A stretch of 64,000 bases of DNA from the NCBI RefSeq assembly GCF_015453285.1, contig NZ_JADLZT010000007.1:186001-250000 (forward strand). The letters are read 5' to 3'. The translations under genes and the position numbers were made by a program. This document shows positions 42,832-49,807 of this stretch, piece after piece. The stretch is from Lysobacter niastensis (GTDB taxonomy: Bacteria > Pseudomonadota > Gammaproteobacteria > Xanthomonadales > Xanthomonadaceae). How positions within the stretch are numbered: the first letter of the stretch is position 1; each line of letters opens with the position of its first letter. The notes under the pieces are model-generated. The model was given only the letters and a program-made list of their open reading frames with translations, was not told where the DNA came from and made no database searches.

Positions 42832-43050
42832 TCAATCAGCAATGGCGAGAAGGTGCGCCTTGAGATCCGCCATGAACCTGTCGGATTCAAACCCCTGGAT
42901 CTTCAGACCCAGAACTGCGTCGGACTCGGCTTCAAGCTGCGTGGCTATTGCCGAAGCAAGGTCTCCGCGTGATCGGATCAGCCGAAGCTCGGCCCCGGAG
43001 ATTACGACCCCCAACTCAAGCAGGTTTTCGCCACTCAAGTACGAAGCCAT
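42832..43050 (-). CDS. Small hypothetical protein, distal gene of the RHS island
   Basis: The ~72-residue acidic protein (MASYLSGENLLELGVVISGA at the start) has no recognised domain. ATG 43050 overlaps the preceding small gene by 35 bases; ATG 43110 would overlap it by 95 bases and is less likely. Base composition is visibly lower in GC than the core genome. It lies on the same strand and downstream of the RHS genes, where immunity genes usually lie, which is the only hint to function. Confidence 0.5.
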   Translation of the reverse strand: MASYLSGENLLELGVVISGAELRLIRSRGDLASAIATQLEAESDAVLGLKIQGFESDRFMADLKAHLLAIAD

Positions 43051-43270
43051 CGGTTTCGACCACGTGATTCCCCAGGTAGTAGCGAGGACCTGACAGTTCG
43101 TCGTCGACATCGCTTCCGTCCATCAAATCCAGACCCATCACCACCTCCTCGACACCTGGGCCGTAATCCGCGGCCTCGAGCTTCGAACTCAGAACCGATT
43201 CGATCTCATCGGAAAGCTGAGTCAGCCAGTACACCCCCTCGGACACTCGAACCCCAAACCCGATTTTCAT
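43016..43270 (-). CDS. Small acidic hypothetical protein in the RHS island
   Basis: The 84-residue acidic protein (GVYWLTQLSDEIESVLSSKL, then EEVVMGLDLMDGSDVDDELS) has AGGTG 5 bases before ATG 43268-43270, a good translation start. It is not recognised. Small, acidic, cytoplasmic and downstream of an RHS gene, it fits the general profile of an immunity protein, but this is inference. It overlaps the next small gene. Confidence 0.6.
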   Translation of the reverse strand: MKIGFGVRVSEGVYWLTQLSDEIESVLSSKLEAADYGPGVEEVVMGLDLMDGSDVDDELSGPRYYLGNHVVETDGFVLEWRKPA

Positions 43271-43350
43271 GCATCACCTATGGGTAAAGGGCCAGGTTCA
43301 CTTCCCTTGCAAAATTCCCCTTTCGGCCGTTGAGCGTCACTCCCGCATGG

Positions 43351-43578
43351 CTAAATCCCCCAAAAGATATCCAAGACGGCTTTCCAGGCCTGCCTCAAGT
43401 TCATCCCACGCTTCTTGAACACAATCTGATAGATCGTCGCAAATACCGCACCGATGAACATCGCAAGAAATACGAGCAACCCAATCCACTTGGGGAGGTA
43501 TAGACAGGACCAAGCAGCCAGCACGCCAACGGCTAGCAACCCTAGAACAAAGCGAATGCCTTCAATCTTGGCTTTCAT
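43351..43578 (-). CDS. Small two-helix membrane protein in the RHS island
   Basis: The 75-residue protein has two transmembrane segments (FVLGLLAVGVLAAWSCLYL and WIGLLVFLAMFIGAVFATIY) and a basic C-terminal part (KKRGMNLRQAWKAVLDIFWG). No family is recognised. It lies downstream of the RHS genes on the same strand. A membrane immunity protein is possible. The translation signal is weak. Confidence 0.55.
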   Translation of the reverse strand: MKAKIEGIRFVLGLLAVGVLAAWSCLYLPKWIGLLVFLAMFIGAVFATIYQIVFKKRGMNLRQAWKAVLDIFWGI

Positions 43579-43673
43579 GGAGAAAGTGACCCCATCTCAA
43601 TCATGAACACCCCCGCAGAGAGGTGAACCTGCCCCTTCCGTGACGGATGCAACCCTCGCCTTGCCTTGGATGG

Positions 43674-43913
43674 TCATGGTCCACTCCTATTACGATCCAC
43701 ACCCGGCCTCCTTTCAGCTCTTCTTTCAACAACAACACCCAAGGCAGAACAGATTGCAAGAAGCAAAATTGCCACAACCGCATACCTCCACCCGCCGGAG
43801 GGGAAAAGAAGGGGCTTGATGGCTCCCGCCATGAACGCCCCCACTCCCCAAACAGTCCACCGCAGAGCCCGCGCAAGAGTCATAGCAGAATCCCGGTTCT
43901 GGTTACTTTCCAT
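43674..43913 (-). CDS. Small membrane protein overlapping the RHS 3' end
   Basis: The ~79-residue protein has two hydrophobic stretches (LRWTVWGVGAFMAGAIKPLL and YAVVAILLLAICSALGVVVE) and a basic tail. ATG 43913 overlaps the RHS stop by 11 bases, so translation is probably coupled to the RHS gene. This is the classic place for a cognate immunity gene; a membrane immunity protein would suit a membrane-acting toxin. No family is recognised. Confidence 0.6.
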   Translation of the reverse strand: MESNQNRDSAMTLARALRWTVWGVGAFMAGAIKPLLFPSGGWRYAVVAILLLAICSALGVVVERRAERRPGVDRNRSGP

Positions 43914-46900
43914 TGTTCTCAACGTCTTCCCGCTTCAGTCGCGCCGAATCAACAGCACCGCGAACCTCGATAATCTTGACTCCGTCCATTTGCTTGCTCT
44001 TGTCACCATTCGCAACATCCTGACCTAACCGCTTTAGGACGACTCCAGTTGCAGCCGCACCTGCGGTTTCAGCAACATCTCCTGCTGCCGCTGCAGCACC
44101 CGCAACATGCTTCGTCTCTCGAGCCGCGAGCTTCTGAGCTCTGTTTGCAGTGTTTCGCGCCTGTGCCGATACCTTTTTAGCAGCGCTCACAGATCTCTTT
44201 ATCACTGACACCGCAGATTTCGCTCTAAGTGCAACAGACCCCATTCCAGGCAACACCGTGCCGATTGCCGCGGCGACTGCGACATCGGACCTGTCTATTT
44301 CTGACCATGACCGCTTTCCATCAAGCACAACCTGCATACCGATCTCGACCGCTGCCCCAGTTGCCGCGCCGAGGCCAGCTCGGCTAAGAACTGCCGCAGG
44401 AACGCACACCGGACAGCGTCCGTCGGGATCCGTGAACGCATATGGGTTGTTGTACGCATAGGCGAATCGATTGAAATGTCGCCAGCCTCCGTCGTAGGCA
44501 GTCACGGGATCCACACTTAGGAATCGCCCCACCTGCGGGTCGTAGTACCGCTGCTGCATATACGTCAGCCCGGTCGCCGCATCCATGACGTGGCCGGTGT
44601 AGCCGATGCCGTCGATGGCCTTTCCGATTGATGCGCCGTAGGGCTCGTAGTTCGTGCGCTCGATGATGTTGCCGGCTTTGTCGGTCACCGCGACCGGGCT
44701 TCCGAGTGCGTCGGTGTGCTGGTAGCGAGCTTCCCAGGCCTCGCCGTATTGGCCGGTGTCCGCACTGGCCACCAGGCTGCCAGCCAGGTAGTAGTGCTCG
44801 GTTGAGCCGGGCTTGCGGCTGTCGTGCTGGACCAGCAACTGACCGGACTGACTGTAGTACGACAACACCTGGCTGACGTCGGTACGCTCAATCTGCACGC
44901 GCCGGCCGTAGCCGTCGTAGCGGTACGACTCGATGCCCGCTGCATCGCGCAGGCGGTTGCCGTAGTCGAACGCGTAGGTCTGGCCGTTCTTCCTTGCCAG
45001 GTTGCCCTGCGCGTCGTAGTCCAGACCGATGACCGTGGCGCCGGCACCGTTCTTGACGTTGATCAGCCGGTTTCGGGCGTCGTACCAGTAGACGTGGTCC
45101 TTGACGCCTGCCAGCTTCGCTGAACGCAGGTTGTCGAGGCCGTCGTAGCTGTATTGGTAGACACCGTCGCCGCCGAACATGCTTGAAGATGCGGTGATCA
45201 CACGATCGAGGCCGTCATATTGCATCGTGCGGTCGTAGATCGCTCCCTGCACGCCGTCGGCGATCGACGCGACGTTGCCGTTCGGATCGAATGCGTAATG
45301 CAGGTCGAGCACGTCCGCCGAGCCCATGGCCGACGTGCCGTCCACAAGAGACATCAGGCCATGGCCGTCGCTGCTGCGTGTAGGCAACTGGCGCGCGTTC
45401 TGGGTCATCGTGTGAACGAGACCGTTGCCGTAGGTGAATCGACGAATCGCGCCGTTGGGGTAGTAGGCGGCCCCGCTGGCATACGCACCCACCCGCGTCG
45501 GCTGTCCCCAGGCGTTGGGTGCGTACTCGACGGTGGTGCCTGAGGGGTAGGTCTGGGCCGCCAGATGGCCGGCGCTGTCGTAACCGTAGCCGATGCTCCA
45601 CGCGATGCCGCCAGGCCCCTCCAGTGATTCGCCAGTCAGCAGGCGCCGCCGGTTGTAGGTGTAACTGTTGGTCACCGCGATGCCGCTCGCATCCCACGTG
45701 ACGATCTGCTCGGGCTGGCCGTCCGGGGTGTAGGTCCAGCCCTGGTCGCCGTTGCCGTCCGGGAACGCCAGTGTCGCTAGGCGATTGCGCGCGTCGTAGC
45801 CACGCCACACCGCGCGCCCCGAAGCCAAGGCCTGACTGCGGTCACAACTGGCGGCGGACGGCAAGTCCAGGCCGCTGGCAGACCAGGCCGTATTGCCGGC
45901 AGCGTCGTAGTCGACAACAGTTGCGCCGACTTCGGGCTCGATGGTCTTGCAGAGCCTATGGTGCTGATCATAGACGTAGCGGCGCGAAAGCGATTGCGCT
46001 GGCGGAACAGACAGGACACCAGAGCCATCGAGCGGCCTGTTGTCGGCGCCGCTCGGCGAGATGCCAAGGACGTGGATCTTCTTGTTTGCATGCGCCTGCC
46101 GGATCGCAAGGGTGATTGGGATCCGGAAGCGATATGCGGCACCCTGAGCCTGGCAAATGGAAGCGATACCCGTATCGCTGGGCTGGTCGGCGTGATAGGT
46201 AGCGATGAGCGTGCCGATGCTGGCGGCGTCACCGGCATACAGCTGCACATCAATGGACGCGCTTCGTCCGGTCGAGCATGCCCATCCCTGTAGCTGGTAG
46301 CCCTGGTCCGACTGCAACTGCAGGTCTTCCACTTTGCCGATCAACGTGGGCGCGCCGACCGTGACACCCACTGGCGGCGAACTTGCCTCGATGCCGTTGT
46401 TGTCCGTCGCCCGAGCGGTGAGCGTGTAGGCTCCGCTGGCGACACTGCTCCACGTGATCGCGTACGGAGCCGTGGCGTCAGTGCCGACCAGCGTGTCGTT
46501 GGCATAGAACGCCACTTGCGCGACGGCGCCATCAGGATCGCTTGTCGTAGCGGACAACCCGATTGTGGCCGGCGCGATGAATGGCGCTCCTGTCGGTACG
46601 CCCATCGTCACCGTAGGCGGGAAGCCGCCCGGCACCATTACGCTGATGCTATGAGGCAGCGACTGCAGCGTCCGACCGAGGTTGGTCTTGACGACCGAGT
46701 AGAACTGGTAGCTGCCTGCCGGCAGCGCGGTCAGTGTGTGGGTCAACGTACGGGTGTTGCCGTAAGCAATCTGGCCGCCGTTGCGGTACAGGCGGTGCTC
46801 GACGACACGCTCGCCGTCGGCGGCAAACTCGGACTCGGAGGTCACGGTAACGGTCGCAGGCTCGGCGTAGGTGGAACCCTCGGCCGGCGCACTGAGCCAG

Positions 46901-46971
46901 ATCTCGTCGGTGGCATGGACAGCGGGGCTGATCAACCCGATCAGCAAAAACAGAGTCATGGACCTGAACAT
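43903..46971 (-). CDS. Secreted RHS-repeat protein with Ig-like N-terminus and variable C-terminal tip
   Basis: The 1022-residue protein has a signal peptide (MTLFLLIGLISPAVHA), Ig/cadherin-like domains (about 20-210, including FYANDTLVGTDATAPYAITW), a further beta domain (about 210-325), YD/RHS repeats from about residue 327 (RRYVYDQHHRLCKTIEPE) and the RHS core end (RYYDPQVGRFLSVDPVTAYD, then NPYAFTDPDGR at about 852). The final 170 residues are Ala-rich, begin CPVCVPAAVL and match no toxin fold I know. They and the downstream DNA are lower in GC than the rest. The start ATG 46971 fits the signal peptide. It lies 76 bases after another RHS gene that seems to supply its missing N-terminal half. 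Confidence 0.88.
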   Translation of the reverse strand: MFRSMTLFLLIGLISPAVHATDEIWLSAPAEGSTYAEPATVTVTSESEFAADGERVVEHRLYRNGGQIAYGNTRTLTHTLTALPAGSYQFYSVVKTNLGRTLQSLPHSISVMVPGGFPPTVTMGVPTGAPFIAPATIGLSATTSDPDGAVAQVAFYANDTLVGTDATAPYAITWSSVASGAYTLTARATDNNGIEASSPPVGVTVGAPTLIGKVEDLQLQSDQGYQLQGWACSTGRSASIDVQLYAGDAASIGTLIATYHADQPSDTGIASICQAQGAAYRFRIPITLAIRQAHANKKIHVLGISPSGADNRPLDGSGVLSVPPAQSLSRRYVYDQHHRLCKTIEPEVGATVVDYDAAGNTAWSASGLDLPSAASCDRSQALASGRAVWRGYDARNRLATLAFPDGNGDQGWTYTPDGQPEQIVTWDASGIAVTNSYTYNRRRLLTGESLEGPGGIAWSIGYGYDSAGHLAAQTYPSGTTVEYAPNAWGQPTRVGAYASGAAYYPNGAIRRFTYGNGLVHTMTQNARQLPTRSSDGHGLMSLVDGTSAMGSADVLDLHYAFDPNGNVASIADGVQGAIYDRTMQYDGLDRVITASSSMFGGDGVYQYSYDGLDNLRSAKLAGVKDHVYWYDARNRLINVKNGAGATVIGLDYDAQGNLARKNGQTYAFDYGNRLRDAAGIESYRYDGYGRRVQIERTDVSQVLSYYSQSGQLLVQHDSRKPGSTEHYYLAGSLVASADTGQYGEAWEARYQHTDALGSPVAVTDKAGNIIERTNYEPYGASIGKAIDGIGYTGHVMDAATGLTYMQQRYYDPQVGRFLSVDPVTAYDGGWRHFNRFAYAYNNPYAFTDPDGRCPVCVPAAVLSRAGLGAATGAAVEIGMQVVLDGKRSWSEIDRSDVAVAAAIGTVLPGMGSVALRAKSAVSVIKRSVSAAKKVSAQARNTANRAQKLAARETKHVAGAAAAAGDVAETAGAAATGVVLKRLGQDVANGDKSKQMDGVKIIEVRGAVDSARLKREDVENNGK

Positions 46972-47047
46972 CGGCGGATCCTTCCAGTCGATGGCGACGT
47001 CGCCCTGCAGCGTCGCGGTGCACAAACAGCAATGTCGGAATGACCTC

Positions 47048-49807
47048 TCAGCCCCCGGGGCCAGAGCGGCTCACTTCCAGCGGCTTGAGGTAGCGATCAC
47101 GCGCGATGGTCGTGGAGGCGCCTTCGGGTGCGTCCTGTCCGATCAGTGCGTCGTAACTGGGTTCGTCGTACACCTGGAATCGCTGCAGGACCGGATGGCC
47201 ACGCGGGTTGGTGATTCGACGTTCGAAGCCCGGCAGGTACTCGGTCCGCGTCAGCAGTGGCCCGAGTTCTGAATCCTGCTCGACGTGCGTGACCCTGCCC
47301 AGTGCGTCGTACCGCGTCCGCACGCCTTGGACCAGGCTGTTGTAGGCGTTCGCAGTGTCCGATGGGTACGACGCGAACGTTTCGCGCCCGTCGGCGTCGT
47401 AGCTGCGCGACCGGTATCGCGGTGCGGCTGCGCTGTCGCCAATGTCCCGTTCGATCTCGAACACCGGTCGCCACAACGCGTCGAAGTACTGTTCCTTCCG
47501 GTAGCGTCCGGTGATCGTGGTACGCAGCCAGGAGCCCACAGGCAGGTCCCAGGCAGTTGTCGGTATGGACTGGAACGACAGCACTGTTGTGGCGCCCGCG
47601 GGCACATCGCCTGCCGGCGGCTTGATGGTCGCCAACCGCCCCATCGCGTCGTAGGTGTAGGCCGTGGTGTAGCCATTCTCGTCGGTAGTCGCAGTGATCC
47701 AGCCCAACGAATTGACTTGCGCCGACTCCAGGCGGCCGTCGGCATGGCGGATCTGACGCGGCACGCCGCGATACCAGCCAGTCAGCTCTGTTGTGTGCTC
47801 AGCACCATCCTTCACAGTCGCCACGGTGCCATCGGTGTTGTAGCCCAACGTCTGCTGTAGCTTGCCGAAGCGAAACTCGCGAATCGGTAGCACCGACGCC
47901 GGCTCGTAATCGGTCTGGGCCATGACCTTGCCCTGTTCGACATCCACCTGCTGGCGCACCTGCCCGATAACCCATTTCGACAGGTCGTCGTAATAGGCGG
48001 TGGCGTCTGTCTTGGAATAGCCCAGCGAACTTGCCCTGCGGGTGCTGGTGGCCCGGGCGAAGGCGTCGAAGCCAGTGACGGCCTGATCGAAGGCAACCTC
48101 GTCCTGCGTGATCGCCTTTCCCGACTGCGGCCGCAGGTACTCTGAGGTAAATCCATCACCTCGCGGCTGCGGACTGGTACCGATCGGCGTTGCGTACGGG
48201 CGACCCGATTGCGCGAGATCGTAGGTGCTGACCTCGGTCTTGAGGATGGCATCTGGGCCATTGCCGGTCTCCACCTTCAGCAACTTGCCTTCGTTGTAGC
48301 GATAGCTGTTGCCAAAGGTATGGCGCTCCCACACGCCGTCCGGCCCCGCGAGTACGGTCATCGCCTTGCCAGCGCAGCTGTCCGACGTGCAGACGACCGC
48401 ACCGCAATTGGATGTTGTGCAGACAGGTCCGGTGCCGGGTGCGAAGGTGGCATCGGATGAGTACGAATAGGTCCATTCGGCCGGAGCGAGCGCAGGCCCT
48501 GTGACGCGCTTCTTCACGACGCTCAGAGCGTCATAGTTCAGGGGGTAGTACGCGGTGTCGTCGTTCGGATCGTTGTAAGGACTGGTGTACCCGCTGCACA
48601 GCATCGGCACGTTGCTGCGGCCGTGCCGGGTCGGCTCCACGGTGAACTCGCCGGTGGCCCCGGAGGGATGGGTGATGGTGCCGAAAGCGCCTGCCGTGAT
48701 GACTATTCCGGGATCGCCACAGCTGCGGACCGGATCGCAGATCTGGCCCAGCCCTGCCGGCCTGCAGAACGGCTTCTCGTAGCGGATTTTCGCGTCGGTG
48801 AGTGCTGCGAAGGCGATCGTCCAGCGACTCTGATCGGGGAGGATTACAGCCGAGAGACTGCCCTTTCCGATGCTTTGGTATGTGTATTGGTACGTCCAAG
48901 TCTGCGCACCGTTGCTGACAGTCGCCACCTGTCCCAGCGCGTTGTAAGTGAGGGACATCGCACGACCATCGCTCGCATCCATCCGCGTTAGGCGCACTGG
49001 CGCCGCCGCTGCGTTGGCGTAGGTATAGGTCAGCCAGTTGCCGAATCGGTCCTGGACGCGAGAGACATACAACACCCGCTTCCTGCGAAGAATGACGTCA
49101 CCGCCACCGGCTCCACTCTTAAGATCCGGTTCCTGGTAGGAGGCCATCCAGTCGAACCAGTACTTCGTTCCATCCTTGCTGATCGCGAGAAAGCCCTCAC
49201 CCCCACCATTCTTGATCTTGGCCAGGCAGGAGAAGTAGGTGAACTCGCTGGTCATCCAGTAGTACGGCCCGCCTGAGCTTGGAGACGGAGCACCGGAACT
49301 CGCCAGCAGCATCTCGCCACCACCAGGCATCGAAGCCTGATTGCCTTGCCAGTAGTCCTCCGGCGGAAACATGCTGGAGCCAATGTGCAGTTGTGGCGGC
49401 CTGGCCTGCGCGGGAGTGCTTGCGGTGCACGGCGTACCAAACCCATCGTTTTCCCCGCCAGCGCCAAAAACGCCGCTGATCCTCGGAATATCCAGATCCC
49501 AGTCCGCCATCGGCAGATCGTTGACGCGATAGCCCTTGCGGTTGCTGACCGTGTACGTTCGGGTAAGCGCCATCGGCAAGGCCACGCTGTTACCAGAAAC
49601 CGAGACATCGGTCGTGGAGAACGACAACGCTCCATTCATCAGGTTGACCTGATCCCCGAGCAGGGCCGGTCCAAGCACCGCGATCGACTCGCGATTCTTG
49701 ATGAGCTTGTCGTACTCCTCCCACGGCTGCTTCGCGTCATCCTGCGACCAGGCCGGTGACGCCGCAATGCCGAGCAGTGCTGCAAGCGCCCAACAGAAAG
49801 TTTTCAT
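47048..49807 (-). CDS. Secreted RHS-repeat protein, N-terminal-half type
   Basis: The 919-residue protein has a signal peptide (MKTFCWALAALLGIAASPAW), the N-terminal RHS cap (SIAVLGPALLGDQVNLMNGA, then FADWDLDIP-like MADWDLDIPRISG), a DUF6531-like beta region and YD repeats (GYTTAYTYDAMGRLATIKPP). It ends RYLKPLEVSRSGPGG without an RHS core signature or C-terminal toxin domain. The start ATG 49807 has AAGGAAGG upstream. The RHS repeats appear to continue in the next gene, so the two products may form one shell. Full single-chain versions of this protein type exist in related bacteria, to my recollection. Confidence 0.88.
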   Translation of the reverse strand: MKTFCWALAALLGIAASPAWSQDDAKQPWEEYDKLIKNRESIAVLGPALLGDQVNLMNGALSFSTTDVSVSGNSVALPMALTRTYTVSNRKGYRVNDLPMADWDLDIPRISGVFGAGGENDGFGTPCTASTPAQARPPQLHIGSSMFPPEDYWQGNQASMPGGGEMLLASSGAPSPSSGGPYYWMTSEFTYFSCLAKIKNGGGEGFLAISKDGTKYWFDWMASYQEPDLKSGAGGGDVILRRKRVLYVSRVQDRFGNWLTYTYANAAAAPVRLTRMDASDGRAMSLTYNALGQVATVSNGAQTWTYQYTYQSIGKGSLSAVILPDQSRWTIAFAALTDAKIRYEKPFCRPAGLGQICDPVRSCGDPGIVITAGAFGTITHPSGATGEFTVEPTRHGRSNVPMLCSGYTSPYNDPNDDTAYYPLNYDALSVVKKRVTGPALAPAEWTYSYSSDATFAPGTGPVCTTSNCGAVVCTSDSCAGKAMTVLAGPDGVWERHTFGNSYRYNEGKLLKVETGNGPDAILKTEVSTYDLAQSGRPYATPIGTSPQPRGDGFTSEYLRPQSGKAITQDEVAFDQAVTGFDAFARATSTRRASSLGYSKTDATAYYDDLSKWVIGQVRQQVDVEQGKVMAQTDYEPASVLPIREFRFGKLQQTLGYNTDGTVATVKDGAEHTTELTGWYRGVPRQIRHADGRLESAQVNSLGWITATTDENGYTTAYTYDAMGRLATIKPPAGDVPAGATTVLSFQSIPTTAWDLPVGSWLRTTITGRYRKEQYFDALWRPVFEIERDIGDSAAAPRYRSRSYDADGRETFASYPSDTANAYNSLVQGVRTRYDALGRVTHVEQDSELGPLLTRTEYLPGFERRITNPRGHPVLQRFQVYDEPSYDALIGQDAPEGASTTIARDRYLKPLEVSRSGPGG

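Follow-up and report, generated by a model that had tools for sequence, protein, structure and literature searches.

How can a single RHS shell come to be encoded by two genes, each of which opens with its own export signal? The question is raised by a 64,000-nucleotide stretch of Lysobacter niastensis DNA (assembly GCF_015453285.1, contig NZ_JADLZT010000007.1, positions 186,001 to 250,000), hereafter the window, in which two adjacent open reading frames (ORFs), chain A and chain B, carry parts of an RHS protein. A reading of the letters without database searches, the sequence-only reading, had described them as one RHS protein divided into two separately secreted halves. Our analysis indicates that the locus probably encodes one RHS-shell polymorphic toxin as two Sec-exported chains forming one shell. 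It belongs to a family with four joints, which recur in use and of which two may be used together, giving three chains, and this division into two or three chains at recurrent places suggests a toxin container that is put together outside the cell interior.

The two separate halves are real: both genes are open, in different frames and 76 bases apart, and their layout recurs in other genera. For the Shine-Dalgarno sequence noted on the upstream gene there is a candidate (AAGGAAGG, ahead of the ATG of chain A), and a second Shine-Dalgarno-like sequence, GGAAGGA, precedes the ATG of chain B. Signal peptides were called by a home-made score with one threshold, which is positive for the stretch MKTFCWALAALLGIAASPAWS of chain A and for that of chain B, which begins MFRSMTLFLLIGLISPAVHA; both had been predicted. 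Pfam RHS_repeat (PF05593) is above its cut-off in both chains, and its matches in the organism's own genome are confined to these two genes. The N-terminal cap ascribed to chain A was found only as a DUF6531 match below the cut-off (21.2 versus 24.1 bits). The absence of an RHS core end from chain A and its presence in chain B were borne out by the NCBIfam model Rhs_assc_core (TIGR03696), which reaches 72.9 bits (cut-off 32.5) in chain B and, of the two chains, only there. The immunoglobulin-like (Ig) domains, matched by Big_7, are likewise found in chain B only, and they stand where they had been placed, at the split, in the first part of chain B and ahead of its RHS repeats. The motif PYAFTDPDGR of chain B fits the autoprotease site PxxxxDPxGL except for the final L, and residues D848, P849 and G851 are invariant across 47 aligned rows; the core may hold a site of autoprotease type.

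For comparison with relatives, the family was divided into segments located in open frames: A1 (residues 1-590 of chain A), A2 (591-919), B1 (residues 323-740 of chain B) and B2, the core (741-856). Among 148 genomes, the window's own included, 64 matched chain A and 122 chain B, many of the latter through the common RHS core only. A first set consisted of 60 fetched regions, with that of the window among them. The named set consisted of 79 loci, the best among 205 relatives that a single scan with a B1 alignment yielded; several loci occur in both sets (L072 = L142, L091 = L131 and others). Viral contigs contributed 2 loci, one broken in A1 without a signal-peptide score and the other with only A1-A2-B1 in view, and plasmids 11 records, with identities of 24-31% among the ten matches listed.

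In single-chain relatives the two segments had been described as contiguous, and the alignment agrees: A2 and B1 are joined there by a short turn, for example ..RDIFGKPLSIRRRDVNSTVSVTRSYVYD.. in L087. The sequence-only reading was to fall if homologues never had the two genes as one chain; 19 of the 79 named loci are single-chain. With strands assigned from the repeat pattern, the A2/B1 break falls in the turn between two YD-repeat strands, and strand motifs are retained up to the stop of chain A, which ends ..RDRYLKPLEVSRSGPGG. This stop lies 12-20 residues past an R-D motif (R-N in L128) in all 25 comparable rows, or 24 distinct loci, L072 and L142 being one; from the 29 rows L114 (degenerate), L115 (contig end), L133 (frameshift-like) and L162 (other site) were omitted. 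The break was found in Xanthomonas, Stenotrophomonas, Luteibacter, Pseudoxanthomonas and other Lysobacter, and the same stop position in the same two-gene layout in other genera excludes chance or an assembly error for the window.

The second chain of loci broken at A2/B1 carries a signal peptide and extra domains ahead of B1. Among the 17 named loci of this kind, 11 match the Ig domain of the window, 5 match its third extra domain only (Bd3 in Table 1) and L182 matches neither; Pfam, run on six second chains, returned Big_7 in all six and N_BRCA1_IG in three. L065, L128 and L136 are two-chain loci with the Ig and third-domain order of the window, at identities of 50, 46 and 40% in chain A, 46, 47 and 48% in chain B and 43, 37 and 44% in the extra domains of chain B. 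Bd3 itself, about 115 residues with a GWAC.. motif, also has matches in genomes G006, G024 and G041.

The named set comprises, besides the single-chain loci, 49 loci split in two at one of three sites, one split inside A2 and 5 in three parts. The break lies at A1/A2 in 10 (L173 with A1 on the opposite strand, L191 cut by a contig end), at A2/B1, as in the window, in 17, between B1 and the core in 22, and inside A2 in one (L162). A1 and A2-B1 are separate in the three-part loci, of which L156, L165, L197 and L202 have a separate core chain as well, the fifth being L172. The remaining loci are L139 and L194, cut by contig ends, L130, and L133 and L153, whose breaks are frameshift-like and show no signal-peptide score. 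When the 81 named and viral loci were taken together, 65 of 68 chain ends lay within 30 residues of one of the four sites, which were chosen after the data had been seen; the three outside are L133, L183 and, as the end of an alignment and not of a chain, L197. The fourth site, near residue 838 of chain A, was seen in L215 and L217 (genome G464) in addition to L162, that is, in distant lineages. In L129 and L132 (Stenotrophomonas maltophilia) the core chain is found upstream: each locus has three core-tip ORFs ahead of its shell gene (upstream of 7217), of which one has a signal-peptide score and two are fragments.

Extra domains are found at the other joints too. First chains of the core-proximal layout mostly end in repeats that by eye are FNIII-like, for which the Pfam evidence is indirect (ChitinaseA_N above cut-off in L093; fn3 at 23.5 bits versus 25 in L073), and the second chain, of about 300 amino acids, consists of signal peptide, core and tip. 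FNIII-like repeats or Ig domains were recognised, by eye or by Pfam, at some A1/A2 breaks (L073, L081, L082, L141), and N_BRCA1_IG at those of L074/L178 and L192. By mechanical first starts, 32 chain pairs, including 7 second copies of a locus, overlap by four bases, and the overlapping start is also the one that scores as a signal peptide in L073, L083, L091, L092, L093, L097 (twice) and L098; the chains of the window are separated by their gap, with no overlap.

The order of the pieces is not fixed. It is A2-B1, core, A1 in L202 (Xanthomonas melonis) and in L165 (Pseudoxanthomonas wuyuanensis); in L113 chain B lies ahead of chain A, and no A part upstream of that chain B was found in L227; in L173/L086 A1 is on the opposite strand. 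Owing to the permuted order and the opposite strand, neither readthrough nor frameshifting can yield one polypeptide in these loci, and L202 and L165 offer a natural test of assembly in trans. The permuted pieces (8963-15836 in L202, 8882-18454 in L165) are open frames with export signals, that of the L202 core chain by eye only. Three chains, each with a signal-peptide score, were found in L085, L156, L165 and L197. In L085 (3145-9753) the three RHS chains are A1, then A2-B1 with FNIII-like repeats, then the core.

Later chains score positive as a rule: B chains in 16 of 18 cases, A2-B1-B2 in 9 of 11, A2-B1 in 5 of 5, and all 21 core chains that immediately follow a first chain (20 loci); core-only ORFs of every kind, fragments included, did so in 30 of 41. 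The corresponding values are 14/19, 15/16 and 28/31 for first chains of the types A1-A2, A1 and A1-A2-B1, and 16/19 for single chains. As a control, 41 single-chain ORFs, with some loci entered under two ids, were scanned in the same way; 0 of 123 homologous positions and 1 of 884 interior windows scored. L139 is included in the B count, from which four tip fragments were left out, and L133 was left out of the A2-B1-B2 count. The two B chains missed by the score (L150, L152) and the L202 core chain have a hydrophobic start by eye.

The A and B chains of relatives are both under purifying selection. The ratio of non-synonymous to synonymous substitution (dN/dS) is 0.07-0.15 in chain A over the ten closest pairs of the window's layout (seven distinct) and 0.12-0.33 in chain B over the eight of those pairs that are unsaturated; L066, L133, L153 and L162 were omitted from these tables, and for the layout broken at A1/A2 no sufficiently close pair was available. 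A quickly built tree, based on 61 B1 segments of the first set, requires 20 layout changes, against a mean of 32.6 after shuffling, a value as low being reached in 0 of 200 shuffles. Well-supported branches force at least 5 changes for the A1/A2 break, at least 3 for A2/B1 and at least 4 for the core-proximal break. The A2/B1 label alone is hardly clustered (7 changes; the shuffled mean is 8.6, and 27 of 500 shuffles went as low). Because the tree has no root, gain and loss of a break are indistinguishable in it.

We propose the following model. Chain A, the first part of the strip, and chain B, with its Ig arms, the remaining strip, the core and the tip, would be exported separately and would fold in or beyond the periplasm. 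The two would then dock edge to edge to build one shell round the tip of chain B, much as TcB and TcC do, with the joint's Ig domains projecting outward to bind a target or a surface. The tip, enclosed by the shell, would be released by the core. For further transport out of the periplasm we can only guess at the type II system: the genome holds a gene for its secretin, GspD, and a search of it for Hcp (PF05638) gave no match, the control matching in Escherichia coli. If the model is true, strand edges that dock after export are one way in which RHS shells can close, and the family offers separate toxin chains as well as places where a shell splits naturally. For annotation it is a warning that RHS 'fragments' bearing signal peptides may in many cases be functional subunits.

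The alternative that survives best is that A and B are independent exported proteins, B being a short RHS toxin that closes a smaller shell and has Ig domains for adhesion, and A a separate cap, chaperone or binding protein. It accords with the separate gene and signal peptide of each chain, with core and tip being on B alone and with the reversed order in L113. However, A and B together amount to one single-chain relative with the break in a turn, the strip of B has only about 530 residues and the strand motifs of A continue to its stop, and for these features we consider independence unlikely. All 17 named A chains of the layout adjoin a B chain, which also speaks against independence but counts little because the loci were found by B1.

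Decay, in the form of a broken single gene or of a displaced tip fragment as in enterobacterial rhs loci, is very unlikely. Displacement of C-terminal parts is known (PMC2935791; here and below, what is taken from papers cited by PMC number refers to excerpts of them), and signs of decay exist within the family: detached core-tip fragments at L128, L140, L175 and L195, the frameshift-like breaks of L133 and L153, and a start of the L065 chain A in another frame. Yet both frames of the window are open, a signal peptide stands at the break and both chains are under selection in relatives; recurrence of the layout across genera with the same stop position refutes decay in the main. Chain B was also rejected as a displaced tip fragment, since chain A has no core of its own and B is therefore not a spare. 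That a sequencing error or a programmed frameshift near the C/G run at the end of chain A conceals one real polypeptide is scarcely credible and was rejected on the recurring stop positions and the permuted and opposite-strand relatives: the frame of B is open back into the end of A, where a CCCCGGGGG run lies, but B has its own Shine-Dalgarno sequence, ATG and signal peptide, and the Ig domains lie between the halves.

Several points weigh against two exported chains forming one shell. The named loci, having been found by their B1 part, cannot show whether or how often A occurs without B. No core chain was seen within the fetched stretches of L130 and L172. The threshold of the signal-peptide score was fixed after a first look at the scores, and the score misses some chains, as the count for A1-A2 first chains illustrates. 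The divergence of A correlates with that of B (r = 0.78, versus r = 0.12 in the same test within one chain of another layout), which is weak evidence because correlation is expected of linked genes anyway. In L065 (genome G074) the first residues of chain A are in another frame than the rest, so that this copy is possibly broken or wrongly sequenced. The alternation of layouts may in part be due to recombination among tandem RHS genes. Finally, the tip of chain B has no recognised toxin fold.

A wider proposal would make the locus a member of a widespread class of RHS toxins, in which the shell is built outside the cytoplasm from two or three exported chains, a few fixed joints serve again and again as places of division and of attachment for adhesion domains, and whole-gene exchange of the core-toxin chain is possible at the core-proximal joint while the shell gene stays untouched. 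We hold this joint reading tentatively. Our confidence in it was lowered from an even chance to slightly below one, because exchange of whole chains rests on three of seven pairs. In all seven distinct core-proximal pairs the part after the core is unlike (3-29% over the aligned portion). Compared with the first chain, the core clearly shows more divergence in three (85 vs 96%, 67-68 vs 95% and 77 vs 92%), a similar degree in two (84 vs 87 and 95 vs 93%) and less in two (93 vs 78 and 82 vs 69%). Tips are thus exchanged generally and whole second chains perhaps in three pairs; in the other four only the tip is different, which is also the case among ordinary RHS genes. Whole-gene exchange of the core-toxin chain, which identities over whole chains had suggested, was accordingly dropped as a general rule. 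A C-terminal motif across tips, suspected by eye, was rejected as well, since it matched one of 93 core-bearing ORFs. A Tox-GHH domain (75.1 bits, cut-off 25) is present in the L093 second chain.

WapA is an example of a Sec-exported RHS toxin. Toxins of this kind share with the locus a signal peptide, RHS repeats and a tip; Sec/type II secretion is listed among the trafficking modes of RHS polymorphic toxins, and Ig domains near RHS repeats are noted (PMC3482391). In the excerpt of that paper a divided chain is not mentioned for them, whereas the chain is divided here. In the literature searched, which was limited to open-licence papers and to the excerpts obtained from them, two-chain RHS shells are known only from Tc toxins, and no divided Sec-exported RHS protein is reported outside these.

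In TcB/TcC two polypeptides form one RHS shell, three TcC chains can serve one TcB, and core, autoprotease and toxin are on the second chain (PMC11067744; PMC8765631), an arrangement that the locus would share. The locus differs from them in that SpvB has no match in A, B or their genome: neither SpvB nor a propeller family was found in chain A with Pfam at E 0.1, nor SpvB in chain B, and a search of the genome for SpvB (PF03534) gave 0 matches, its control matching in 1 of 14 genomes. A search of the genome for the TcA partner (PF18276) gave no match, and its control likewise matched nowhere. The RHS part of chain B has about 530 residues versus about 680 before the variable part of TcC (PMC11067744). 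In a profile comparison positions 679-855 of the alignment A4 match 498-689 of YenC2, and the extrapolated start of TcC lies about 150 residues upstream of the window's break; as far as length and extrapolation tell, the break differs from that of TcB/TcC. A further difference is that here the second chain has a signal peptide too, and that there are four break sites; a signal peptide is given for the TcdB/TcaC type itself (PMC3482391, Table 1).

Effectors of the type VI secretion system such as RhsA resemble the locus in their RHS strip, core with a PxxxxDPxG-type site and C-terminal tip, and the best match of the chain B profile among solved structures is an Rhs family protein (7q97, E 6.5e-29). 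They differ in that Pfam finds neither PAAR nor VgrG in chains A and B, which carry signal peptides instead, that there are two chains and that the genome lacks an Hcp match; by our own arithmetic from the excerpts, the RHS part of chain B has about 530 residues versus about 900 in the RhsA shell. Displaced rhs core-tip fragments occur as separate ORFs, and those of Serratia are described as likely silent extras beside a complete gene (PMC2935791). Unlike these, chain B holds the only core of its locus together with its own signal peptide, and the separate chain of relatives often overlaps the first gene by four bases. There is also a weak likeness of chain B to the YD shell of teneurins (PF25023, 28.1 bits versus a cut-off of 50), and the Tox-GHH domain of the L093 core chain is of the class named for them; teneurins, which are proteins of animals, have their Tox-GHH part outside the shell (PMC8765631).

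A wider draw of 369 genomes of the class gave 31 with matches, four being the window's own or near relatives, and 15 regions from 12 genomes were examined. Outside the order, G165, G343 and G511 have a separate core chain with a start that is signal-like by eye, the rest being fragmented in G165. In G464 the later chains are separate and have signal-like starts, and one copy is frameshift-like; G285 has a single chain, and the other genomes of the 12 are ambiguous or weak.

Table 1. Features of the two-chain RHS locus, in positions of the window
Feature	Position	Strand	Description
Chain A	47048-49807	minus	919 amino acids; signal peptide, weak DUF6531-like start, YD repeats, without RHS core
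Predicted signal peptide of chain A, 21 amino acids	49745-49807	minus	Home-made score and sequence
76-base gap, chain A TGA to chain B ATG	46972-47047	minus	Shine-Dalgarno-like GGAAGGA before the ATG of chain B
Chain B	43903-46971	minus	1022 amino acids; signal peptide, Ig-like domains, second strip part, RHS core, C-terminal tip
Predicted signal peptide of chain B, about 20 amino acids	46912-46971	minus	Home-made score; cut site by eye
Two Ig-like stretches of chain B	46414-46908	minus	PF17957 (Big_7), 61.8 bits, two stretches
Bd3, third extra domain, chain B residues 206-322	46006-46356	minus	Without Pfam match; recurs in second chains of relatives
B1, RHS/YD repeats restarting at RRYVYDQHHRLCKTIEPE	44752-46005	minus	Joined to A2 in single-chain relatives
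B2, RHS core ending PYAFTDPDGR (PxxxxDPxG-type site)	44416-44751	minus	TIGR03696
C-terminal tip of chain B, about 170 amino acids	43906-44415	minus	No Pfam match at E 0.1
Small ORF, 79 amino acids from ATG	43674-43913	minus	Overlaps the end of chain B; membrane-like by eye

The best Big_7 stretch covers residues 119-186 of chain B (46414-46617), and the bounds of the other are approximate. The tip of chain B is 42% identical, over most of its length, to that of L069. The small ORF that overlaps the end of chain B, whose best match is MFS_1 below the cut-off (19.5 versus 33.4 bits), seems to occupy the position of an immunity gene. The G+C content falls to 54% at 43000-43999, which covers the last part of the tip and the downstream small ORFs, versus 59-69% in the other 1-kb steps between 38 and 56 kb, and this may possibly mark an exchanged tip region.

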